The notes beneath the pieces are model-generated. The model did not search any database. It was not told the origin of the DNA and saw nothing but the letters and a program-made list of their open reading frames with translations. The position numbers were made by a program, and so were the translations under genes. This document shows, piece by piece, positions 2,967 to 8,272 of a stretch of 36,216 nucleotides of DNA. Every line of letters begins with the position of its first letter. Positions within the stretch are counted from its first letter, which is position 1. This DNA comes from Pseudolabrys sp. (GTDB lineage Bacteria > Pseudomonadota > Alphaproteobacteria > Rhizobiales > Xanthobacteraceae), in assembly GCA_030651965.1 (NCBI GenBank), contig JAUSBQ010000163.1:1-36216 (forward strand). The letters are read 5' to 3'.

Positions 2967-3491
2967 TCAGACTTTCTCGGTCCCGAACGCCGCCTTCAGC
3001 AGCCCGAGCTGGTGCTCGACCGGATTGATCGACGGCGCCTGTTCGGCTGCGATATTGTGAATGGTGTTGTCGAGCCGGCGCACCTTCATGTGCAGTTGTT
3101 GCGCGCGCTCGATCAAGGCGCGCAGCACGGCCGGCAGCAGCTCGACATTGTTCGGATCGTGATTGTCGGTGGCGGCCAGCTTGACCTTGGTCTTTTCCTT
3201 GTTGGCCTGGGCCAGCGACATCTCGCCTTCCTTGACCGCGCGATGCAGCAGTAGCCATGACGCAAGCTGCATCAGCCGGGTAGTCAGCCGCATGCTCTCG
3301 GTGGCGTAAGCCAGCGCCGCGGCGCGTTCGAGCGTCTTGGATTCGGCGCGGCCGGGACCGTCGAGATAGGTCGCGGTTTCCTCGACCAGCGCCATGCCGT
3401 CGCGAAACAGATCGGCGAAGGCCTGCGAATTGGCGAGGCGCTCACCGAACGATACCGGTTCCGCCGAACTGCTGAACAATGACTCGGACAT
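2967..3491 (-). CDS. rcdA: DUF1465 family protein, RcdA-like (regulator of CtrA degradation)
   Basis: FGERLANSQAFADLFRDGMALVEETATYLDGPGRAESKTL… resembles the DUF1465/RcdA family; start placed at internal Met (MSESLF). Confidence 0.75.
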   Translation of the reverse strand: MSESLFSSSAEPVSFGERLANSQAFADLFRDGMALVEETATYLDGPGRAESKTLERAAALAYATESMRLTTRLMQLASWLLLHRAVKEGEMSLAQANKEKTKVKLAATDNHDPNNVELLPAVLRALIERAQQLHMKVRRLDNTIHNIAAEQAPSINPVEHQLGLLKAAFGTEKV

Positions 3492-3712
3492 AACGCTACG
3501 CCTCACCCTAGTCTTCTAAGCTGACGTTCTAAATTATTCTTGCGTGGCGCGGAGCGGCACACACGATGCCCCGTTCACGATTGGGTAAGCATGGCGCGGC
3601 CGGGCGCTTATTGTCCAGACGGCGCCGCCGCAAAGCTGCCGACATAGTTGCCAGGCAGGCTTAAAACGGAACGCAGTCCGGCAATTTGCCGGCACCTGCC
3701 CCGAAACGGGAC

Positions 3713-3740
3713 AAAAAAGAGCCGCCGTTTCCGGCGGCTC
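3713..3740 (-). terminator. rho-independent terminator (GNRA tetraloop, U6 tail)
   Basis: Minus strand GAGCCGCCG GAAA CGGCGGCTC TTTTTT, perfect 9-bp stem. Confidence 0.85.
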
Positions 3741-3825
3741 GAAGTTGATAACAGGGAGGCGTCAAACAGAGTGGACAGGAGCCACTCAAAGTCCATGAAG
3801 ATGGACGGTCATAGTAATAGTCGGG
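3713..3825 (-). ncRNA. candidate trans-acting small RNA with intrinsic terminator
   Basis: Minus strand: hairpin GUCCAU-CUUC-AUGGAC (3806-3791), hairpin GAGUGG-CUCCUGU-CCACUC (3787-3769), unpaired GCCUCCCUG, then GAGCCGCCG-GAAA-CGGCGGCUC-U6 (3740-3713). Confidence 0.55.
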
Positions 3826-3901
3826 AAAGCTTACTGGCCGGTTAAGGACATAAATTAGGGGCCTGGTCACTTTTGACCATAAAAGCGGGTGGTTTTGCCG
3901 A

Positions 3902-4096
3902 TCAACGCTTGAAAAACTGATCGGCGGCCGCCCGTTTGGCGCGCTTTTGCGCCATGTCGGCCTCCAGCCGTTTTATTTCGTCCTGCATTAACTGTATGCG
4001 CGCCTGCAGTTCCTCGACCGACAGCAGGCCAAGCTCCTGGCCGATCTCATGGGCGATCTTCTTTTTCGGCCGGTCGTCGTCGTCGAATGCCGCCAT
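3902..4096 (-). CDS. DUF1192 family protein
   Basis: MAAFDDDDRPKKKIAHEIGQELGLLSVEELQARIQLMQDEIKRLEADMAQKRA… characteristic of DUF1192. Confidence 0.85.
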   Translation of the reverse strand: MAAFDDDDRPKKKIAHEIGQELGLLSVEELQARIQLMQDEIKRLEADMAQKRAKRAAADQFFKR

Positions 4097-5371: not shown

Positions 5372-8272
5372 TTGCATTCGAGGCGTGCCGTTCACCGACT
5401 AACGACCATATTCGTGCTGACCGCCGCCGTGCTCGTGGCGTCGCGCGCGCATGCCGTGGAAGCCGTGAACGTCCGCCTCGACACCCCGGCCATCGACATC
5501 ACCGCCGCCACCGAGCGCGTACGGACGGACAACGACCGCATCCAGGTATCGACCGCCCCCGGCCCCGACGGCATCGTCCGCCGCATCGAGGTGCGCGCCC
5601 GCGAAGGCAACAACAACTGGGCGACCTTCGCGCTCACCAATAATTCCGACGAACAGATCGACCGCCTGATTGTCGTGCCGCATTACCGCATGGTCGGCTC
5701 CGGCCTGATCTGGCCCGATCTCGGTCTCTCGCGCGTTGCCGGTATCACCCCCTCCACCGGCGACCGTCCGCTGCGCCAGGAATCGACCACCTCGGACATC
5801 TTCCGCGTCACGCTCGACCCCGGCACCGTCATAACCTTCGTCGCCGAATTGCGCACCGATCGCCTGCCGCAGATTTATCTGTGGGAGCCCGACGCCTACA
5901 AGGACAAGGTCAACTCCTTCACGCTGTATCAGGGCATCGTCATCGGTATCGCCGGCCTGCTCGCGCTGTTCCTCACCATCCTGTTCGTGGTCAAGGGCTC
6001 GGTCATGTTTCCGGCCGCCGCCGCGCTCGGCTGGGCGGTGCTCGTCTACATCGGCATCGACTTCGGATTCTGGGGCAAGGTCTTCGACATGTCGGCCGGC
6101 GCCGAGCGCGTCTGGCGTGCCTGCGGCGAGGCGATCCTGTCGGCAACGCTACTCGTCTTCCTGTTCGCTTATTTGAATCTGTCGCGCTGGCATGTGCGCT
6201 ACGCCCACATCACCATTGCCTGGCTGGCGGCGCTTGCCGCCTTGATCGCGGTCGCGGTGTTCGATCCGGCGGTGGCCGCCGGCATCGCCCGCATGTCGCT
6301 CTTGGGGATCGCGGTGTTCGGGCTCGCCCTCGTTGTCTATCTCTCAACGCATGGCTACGACCGCGCGGTACTGTTGATCCCGACCTGGCTGCTGCTGGTG
6401 GTGTGGACCGTCACCGCCGGCATCGCGGTGATGGGCGGCGCGCAGAACGACATTATCGGCCCGGCGTTGCTCGGCGGTCTGGTGCTGATCGTGATGCTGA
6501 TCGGCTTCACGGTGATGCAGCACGCCTTCGCCGGCGGTATCACCCACGGCATCGTCTCCGACGTCGAACGGCGCGCTTTGGCGCTGACCGGCGCCGGCGA
6601 CATGATCTGGGACTGGGACGTCTCGGCCGACAAGGTCTTCACTAGCCCGGAAACCGAACACATTCTCGGCCTCAAGCGCGGCACGCTGGAAGGCCCGGCG
6701 GCGCAGTGGCTGGAAGTGCTGCACTCGCTCGACCGCGACCGCTTCCGCGCTTCGCTGGACAGCGTCGTCGAGCAACGACGCGGTCGCCTCAACCAGGATT
6801 TCCGGCTGCGCGCCACCGACGGGCATTACTTCTGGTTCACGCTGAAGGCTCGACCGGTGGTCGGCTCCGACGGCGAAGTCGTGCGCGTCGTCGGTACGTT
6901 GACCGACGTCAGCGACTTCAAGAATGCCGAGGAACGGCTGCTGTTCGACGCCGTTCACGACAATCTCACCGGCCTGCCGAACCGCGAATTGTTCATCGAC
7001 CGCATGGAAGCTGCCTTCGCCTTCGCCCGTTCCGACACCAATATCCGCCCGTCGGTCATGGTGATCGATCTCGATCGCTTCAAGCAGGTCAACGACTCCG
7101 TCGGCATCGCCGTCGGCGACTCGATCCTGCTGACCATCGCGCGCCGTCTGTCCCGTCTGCTCAAGCCGCAGGATACCCTGGCGCGGCTATCCGGCGACCA
7201 GTTTGCGGTGATCCTGTTGTCCGAGCGCGAGCCGGCGCGCATTGTCGCGTTCAGCGAAACTCTGCGCCGCGCGCTGCGCGCGCCGATCGCGTTCAACGAC
7301 CGCGAAATCTTCCTGACCGCCTCGATCGGTCTGGCGCTGGCCGAAAACGCCCCGCACCGCACCGAGGAAGTGCTCAAGGACGCCGAACTGGCGATGTATT
7401 ACGCCAAGCGCATCGGCGGCGACCGCATCGAAATCTTCAAGCCGGCGATGCGTGCGCGCAAGACCGACCGCTTGACGATGGAATCGGAATTGCGCCGCGC
7501 CATCGAGCGCCAGGAGATCAAGGTGCTGTTTCAGCCGATCGTGCGGCTGGAGGATCGCGCCATTGCCGGCTTCGAAGCGCTGGCGCGCTGGGATCATCCG
7601 AAGATGGGGCGGCTGTCGCCGGCCGAATTCATCTCGATCGCCGAGGAAATCGGGCTGATCGTCGACCTCGGTCTGTTCGTGCTCGACCACACCGCGAAGC
7701 AACTCGCGATCTGGCAGACCGCCACCAAAGGCCGCGAACCGGTATTTGCCTCGGTCAACGTGTCGTCGCGGCAATTGCTGCGCCACGATCTGATCCAGGA
7801 TCTGCGCGGCGTTCTGGCGCGCACGCCGCTGACGCGCGGCTCGCTCAAGCTGGAGATCACCGAGTCGCTGGTGATGGAAAATCCCGAACACGCCGCGCAG
7901 ATGCTCACCCGCATCAAGGAACTCGGCGCCGGGCTGTCGCTCGACGACTTCGGCACCGGGCATTCGTCGCTCGCCTACCTGCAACGGTTTCCGTTCGACA
8001 CCATCAAGATCGACCAGTCCTTCGTGCGGACCACGACGCGCGGCACCCGGCCGGTCATCCTGCGTTCGATCATCGCGCTGGCGCACGATCTCGGTATGGA
8101 AGTTGTCGCGGAAGGCGCCGAAACCGACAGCGACGCCGTCGAGCTGTACCAGCTCGGCTGCGAATACGCGCAAGGCTTCGCCTTCGGCGAGCCGATGACC
8201 TCGGAAGCCGCCCACGATCTGCTGCTCGGCAAGCCGCCGAGCGTGCGCGCGTTCAAGGTGGCGTCGGAATAA
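5372..8272 (+). CDS. membrane sensor with PAS, degenerate GGDEF (SGDQF) and EAL domains
   Basis: 966 aa; probable TTG start with signal peptide, multi-TM segment, PAS (MIWDWDVSADKVF…), RLSGDQFAV, EAL motif FEALARWDHP, LDDFGTGHSSLAYL. Confidence 0.9.
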   Translation: MHSRRAVHRLTTIFVLTAAVLVASRAHAVEAVNVRLDTPAIDITAATERVRTDNDRIQVSTAPGPDGIVRRIEVRAREGNNNWATFALTNNSDEQIDRLIVVPHYRMVGSGLIWPDLGLSRVAGITPSTGDRPLRQESTTSDIFRVTLDPGTVITFVAELRTDRLPQIYLWEPDAYKDKVNSFTLYQGIVIGIAGLLALFLTILFVVKGSVMFPAAAALGWAVLVYIGIDFGFWGKVFDMSAGAERVWRACGEAILSATLLVFLFAYLNLSRWHVRYAHITIAWLAALAALIAVAVFDPAVAAGIARMSLLGIAVFGLALVVYLSTHGYDRAVLLIPTWLLLVVWTVTAGIAVMGGAQNDIIGPALLGGLVLIVMLIGFTVMQHAFAGGITHGIVSDVERRALALTGAGDMIWDWDVSADKVFTSPETEHILGLKRGTLEGPAAQWLEVLHSLDRDRFRASLDSVVEQRRGRLNQDFRLRATDGHYFWFTLKARPVVGSDGEVVRVVGTLTDVSDFKNAEERLLFDAVHDNLTGLPNRELFIDRMEAAFAFARSDTNIRPSVMVIDLDRFKQVNDSVGIAVGDSILLTIARRLSRLLKPQDTLARLSGDQFAVILLSEREPARIVAFSETLRRALRAPIAFNDREIFLTASIGLALAENAPHRTEEVLKDAELAMYYAKRIGGDRIEIFKPAMRARKTDRLTMESELRRAIERQEIKVLFQPIVRLEDRAIAGFEALARWDHPKMGRLSPAEFISIAEEIGLIVDLGLFVLDHTAKQLAIWQTATKGREPVFASVNVSSRQLLRHDLIQDLRGVLARTPLTRGSLKLEITESLVMENPEHAAQMLTRIKELGAGLSLDDFGTGHSSLAYLQRFPFDTIKIDQSFVRTTTRGTRPVILRSIIALAHDLGMEVVAEGAETDSDAVELYQLGCEYAQGFAFGEPMTSEAAHDLLLGKPPSVRAFKVASE

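Follow-up and report, generated by a model that had tools for sequence, protein, structure and literature searches.

We asked whether the DNA between rcdA and a DUF1192 gene in a 36,216-nucleotide contig of Pseudolabrys sp. (the window, i.e., the whole stretch of DNA analysed) encodes a small regulatory RNA and, if so, what controls its transcription and what it may act on. A preliminary description had proposed a minus-strand sRNA at 3713-3825, flanked by an rcdA-like gene and a DUF1192 gene, and both neighbours proved to be as described. Downstream and in the same direction lies rcdA (2967..3491, minus strand), encoding a ClpXP adaptor and recognised by the NCBIfam equivalog NF051867 (211 bits, cutoff 170), by PF07323 and by synteny; RcdA is the adaptor for CtrA degradation (NF051867). 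The DUF1192 gene (3902..4096, minus strand), likewise supported by synteny, is upstream in the same direction and matches PF06698 with 78.8 bits. Elsewhere in the window, ARAGORN calls a tRNA-Ser at 7268-7362 (minus strand), within a GGDEF-EAL gene (5372..8272); this call is probably a false positive.

The candidate, treated as unassigned in the preliminary description, is a real small regulatory RNA and belongs to the catalogued, functionally unstudied Rfam family BjrC1505 (RF02356). More specifically, the Rfam covariance model matches the minus strand of the window at 3852..3712 over its full length (model positions 1-140), with a score of 123.1 bits (E 2e-25) against a gathering score of 50. 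The Rfam scan returned this one match in the window and the same single copy in the genome. As a member of a known family, the sRNA itself is not new; BjrC1505 reportedly comprises sRNAs of Bradyrhizobium and Rhodopseudomonas that Madhugiri et al. described in 2012. RF02356 matched 28 of 31 close relatives, 332 of 398 genomes sampled across the order and 40 of 385 sampled across the class, nearly always once per genome; it matched none of 14 control genomes, Caulobacter vibrioides among them. One weak match in another genome (L030, G001:C9:8984-9133; 30.7 bits), without the linker motif described below and apparently overlapping a tRNA gene, is a false positive of the model.

The hairpins and terminator first read from the letters hold in every detail. 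On the minus strand, hairpin 1 (3791..3806; 6 bp, GUCCAU-CUUC-AUGGAC) and hairpin 2 (3769..3787; 6 bp, GAGUGG-CUCCUGU-CCACUC) precede an intrinsic terminator (3713..3740) with a 9-bp stem (3740-3719), a GAAA loop and T6. Folded over 95 nt, the RNA reaches -38.4 kcal/mol (z = -6.6), and none of 200 shuffles was equally stable. A structure alignment of 63 sequences from about 40 families was used to assess covariation. In this alignment, 94-96% of cells were paired in each of the three helices (95.6% in hairpin 1, 96.2% in hairpin 2, 95.5% overall), and hairpin 1 showed changes on both sides in five of its six pairs. Across the named structure, 14 pairs had changed on both sides, compared with 5.4 +/- 1.2 in shuffles (0 of 500 as high), and the signal was lost when the partners were displaced by 1-3 columns. 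The terminator, supported by the terminator call and by covariation, is strong and itself conserved. The 62-aa ORF called at 3608..3796 crosses the terminator and gave no match in a Pfam search; it is spurious, in line with the early doubt about it.

Between hairpin 2 and the terminator lies the conserved linker UUUGACGCCUCCCUGUUA (3749..3766, minus strand), the probable mRNA-pairing segment, with the universal core CUCCCUGU at 3758-3751. Two pyrimidine-rich, anti-Shine-Dalgarno-like segments had been pointed out, namely GCCUCCCUG in this linker and CUCCUGU in the loop of hairpin 2. Both are present as described, and both the linker core and the loop are predicted to be unpaired (mostly so for the CUCCCU of the linker). 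Their conservation differs: no part of the RNA is better conserved than the linker UUUGACGCCUCCCUGUU, with 97-100% identity at 3764-3751 over the 63 sequences, whereas the loop is replaced by other sequence in outgroups and is therefore not the functional core. The conserved anti-Shine-Dalgarno-like segment is the linker and not the loop, and by comparison of the aligned sequences the invariant part of the RNA is the linker core CUCCCUGU. Both fold and alignment allow a weak GACG/UGUU helix in the linker, so the linker ends may not be free.

Upstream of hairpin 1, the conserved columns take a different form. They consist of two TTAA elements at 3845-3842 and 3834-3831 separated by seven bases, followed by a weak -10-like element, an unconserved gap (3812-3807) and an abrupt onset of conservation at 3806. 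The TTAA elements form a CtrA box (TTAACCGGCCAGTAA, 3831..3845, minus strand) that agrees with the CtrA consensus TTAA-N7-TTAA(C) (PMC7200025; TTAA-N7-TTAA also in PMC12403871) in 7 of 8 letters here and in 8 of 8 in many relatives. The -10-like element TATTACT (3813..3819, minus strand) is supported by its spacing and by columns that are moderately conserved (T 0.61, A 0.65, A 0.74, T 0.69). A scan for a sigma-70 consensus promoter at the sRNA found none, and no -35 element is apparent. Because of the conserved box, the -10-like element and the sharp onset of the RNA, we place the start near 3806, which would give a mature sRNA of about 94 nt (3713..3806, minus strand) with the box centred at about -32. 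The span first proposed would accordingly divide into an RNA at about 3806-3713 and promoter sequence at 3807-3825. The start near 3806 also bears on the Rfam model, whose first ~46 positions (about 3852-3807 here) look like promoter and not RNA. The helices drawn by Rfam at the 5' end have only 47.9% of cells paired, and neither their pair types nor their double-change pairs exceed those in shuffles; this is a shortcoming of the 5' end of the model family-wide and not of this member.

The CtrA box in the window has one mismatch and is modest when taken alone (0.023 of shuffles are as good), and its weight comes from the comparison across genomes. At least 7 of 8 letters are present in 93 of 97 loci and 38 of 40 families, against 4 of 288 upstream control windows from the same loci, and the spacing is nearly fixed, with most boxes at -80 to -82 relative to the linker. 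A scan of named genomes with the linker found both terminator and box in 105 of 118 loci, while most chance matches in non-alphaproteobacterial genomes had neither. The order and orientation DUF1192 - sRNA - rcdA - rpmE recur in most sampled families. In one diverged genus with genomes of 6-8 Mb (loci L447-L476), which we infer to belong to Rhizobiaceae, BjrC1505-like loci score under the Rfam gathering cutoff, yet all 30 have the CtrA box (0 of 105 control windows in the rhizobial set) and are flanked by rcdA and DUF1192. Only the core CUCCCUGU of the linker is kept there and the ACGC part is missing; the same start rule predicts RNAs of 101-106 nt. Since such diverged members fall below the cutoff, Rfam undercounts the family, and these results suggest that the RF02356 model both covers promoter sequence and misses diverged members. 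The genome studied here encodes a CtrA ortholog; it and its C. crescentus counterpart are about 85% identical over 225 aa (determined with an approximate query sequence). The conservation of the site across the order suggests cell-cycle control of the sRNA. The cell-cycle context raised at the outset thus gains support, mainly from the promoter and not from the mere presence of rcdA.

The same box has a bearing on how rcdA itself is thought to be regulated. The rcdA ATG is about 340 bp downstream, which places the box within the 400 bp upstream that Brilli et al. scanned for sites when they predicted, in 2010, conserved CtrA control of rcdA (PMC2877005). In S. meliloti, ChIP-seq detected CtrA binding at the rcdA promoter region, but depletion of CtrA left rcdA unaffected (PMC4433202). 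An sRNA promoter in between would be a simple explanation for this binding without response, and on comparative grounds the CtrA sites credited to rcdA may belong to the sRNA instead. At 14 of 86 loci, L007 among them, the sequence between the sRNA and rcdA holds another CtrA-like site matching at least 7 of 8 letters, compared with 3.7% in shuffles. This second site is not general, and in some lineages rcdA may be served by a CtrA promoter of its own. We found no description of a conserved CtrA promoter of BjrC1505, or of its bearing on rcdA, in the literature searched, a set to which the discovery paper of the family did not belong.

We consider that these observations are best read as follows, with a probability of about 0.65. 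The sRNA would be transcribed independently as a unit about 94 nt long. Its transcription would be controlled, and most likely activated, by CtrA (most likely phosphorylated) bound to the box, whose centre is some 32 bp ahead of the start; a position of -32 is compatible with activation but does not prove it. The two short hairpins and the terminator would present the single-stranded linker GACGCCUCCCUGUU, which would pair with purine-rich ribosome-binding sites of the ACAGGGAG type and thereby repress, in trans, the translation of several mRNAs.

Three other accounts of the locus were weighed against an independent, CtrA-activated sRNA. The one we regard as least improbable, and still unlikely, keeps the transcription unit and changes its control, with CtrA acting as a repressor or with another regulator binding the TTAA elements. 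A repressor could also act from the -35 region, with which the box overlaps, and the box alone gives no sign; on the other hand, the motif is the CtrA consensus cited above, and the absence of an apparent -35 element of the promoter's own is consistent with an activator-dependent promoter. We give still less credence to the RNA being a leader or attenuator of rcdA, in which transcripts starting at 3806 would mostly stop at the terminator and regulated read-through would yield the rcdA mRNA. Such an arrangement would suit the position of rcdA, which in nearly all families follows in the same direction and about equally far away (here, about 220 nt separate it from the terminator). Against it, the strength and conservation of the terminator, the nature of the invariant segment (a single-stranded, anti-Shine-Dalgarno-like stretch and not an anti-terminator), the unchanged rcdA expression on CtrA depletion in S. 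meliloti and a distance to rcdA that reaches 1420 nt (L099) all speak for a separate RNA.

Processing of the sRNA from the 3' UTR of the DUF1192 mRNA is very improbable. It does lie on the same strand, about 50 nt past the DUF1192 stop, and no terminator was found between the two. However, a conserved promoter-like block stands ahead of the RNA at nearly fixed spacing, and this distance from box to RNA stays nearly constant while the distance to DUF1192 varies between about 15 nt and over 800 nt.

Targets of the independent sRNA were sought as complements of the linker within 0-12 nt of an ATG, in sets from its own genome, the family and the order. No widely conserved target emerged from any of the three sets; many matches to the ribosome-binding-site pattern look real, and they fall in different genes, including those for a PaaK-like ligase, CBS-domain proteins, Bug-type binding proteins and a FlgA-like protein. 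In this genome, the ribosome-binding site AGGGAGGCGU of a PaaK-like AMP-ligase gene (L250, G000:C318:8327-8342) is a perfect 10-base complement of the linker. CBS-domain proteins of 143 aa in three genera (L169, L178 and L185) have in common the ribosome-binding site CAGGGAGGCG, complementary to the linker; these matches come from 3 of 41 genomes. The ribosome-binding sites of ctrA and gcrA pair with the linker no better than background (rank 0.36 for ctrA and 0.13-0.57 for gcrA), and an action on these two genes like that of CcnA is not favoured. For rcdA, pairing ranks at 0.098 in this genome, and the median fraction of linker shuffles that pair as well is 0.10 in the window's family and 0.43 over all families. 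An action on rcdA is thus weakly indicated by these pairings and would be limited to the window's own lineage.

Taken more broadly, we think it reasonably likely that BjrC1505/SmelC671 is an order-wide, CtrA-activated cell-cycle sRNA, that the conserved CtrA site long credited to rcdA in Hyphomicrobiales is its promoter, and that pairing with ribosome-binding sites adds a post-transcriptional arm to CtrA control, which in the window's family may reach the GAGGCGU site of rcdA. To our knowledge, sRNAs under CtrA control have been described as isolated examples (CcnA in Caulobacter). An sRNA with a CtrA box that is kept beside rcdA across the order would give the cell-cycle circuit an output that is both new and widely distributed.

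Comparison with known sRNAs sets this RNA apart from most described types. The preliminary description had likened it to the CCUCC-type sRNAs of alphaproteobacteria. The SmelA075/SmelA099 type has three or four hairpins, each with the loop CCUCCUCCC, and occurs in several copies (PMC3927594); the sRNA studied here is single copy and has no such loops, and that likeness was dropped. MmgR (RF00519 suhB) and SorY (RF02651) also have CUCCCU shortly ahead of a GC-rich terminator, and their models score below threshold here (23.9 against a gathering score of 41, and 17.1 against 111). Identity with GsrN or GspR was ruled out on published features. EcpR1 (SmelC291) of S. meliloti, an sRNA conserved in rhizobia and likewise connected to the cell cycle, belongs to another family, being stress-induced, located downstream of divK-pleD and equipped with the loop UCCGCCGCAUCU (PMC4414408), which is absent from 3713-3852. 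CcnA of Caulobacter crescentus also starts shortly downstream of a CtrA box; it differs in its length of 182 nt, its position at the replication origin and its CCCC loop acting on the ctrA and gcrA leaders (PMC8959179), and we saw no relation in sequence or locus.

With BjrC1505 as modelled in RF02356, the sRNA has all three hairpins and the linker in common and shows no difference in the RNA itself; what differs is our rereading of the first ~46 model positions as a putative CtrA-box promoter. A further close counterpart is SmelC671/Sm84/ReC71 of S. meliloti and R. etli, with a long single-stranded CUCCCUGU domain, variable flanking hairpins, a terminator and a length of about 100 nt (PMC3927594; PMC7143759), all features encountered here. 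That domain has been proposed as the interaction site (PMC3927594), the family ranges from Rhizobiaceae to Bradyrhizobiaceae (PMC3927594; PMC7143759), and SmelC671 of S. meliloti is listed with 100 nt, which agrees with the 101-106 nt predicted for the diverged genus, and no assigned sigma-factor promoter (PMC7143759). All 30 loci of the diverged rhizobial genus have a predicted RNA of this build placed between DUF1192 and rcdA, a comparison in which SmelC671 entered by its description only. We take the SmelC671 family and BjrC1505 to be the same family.
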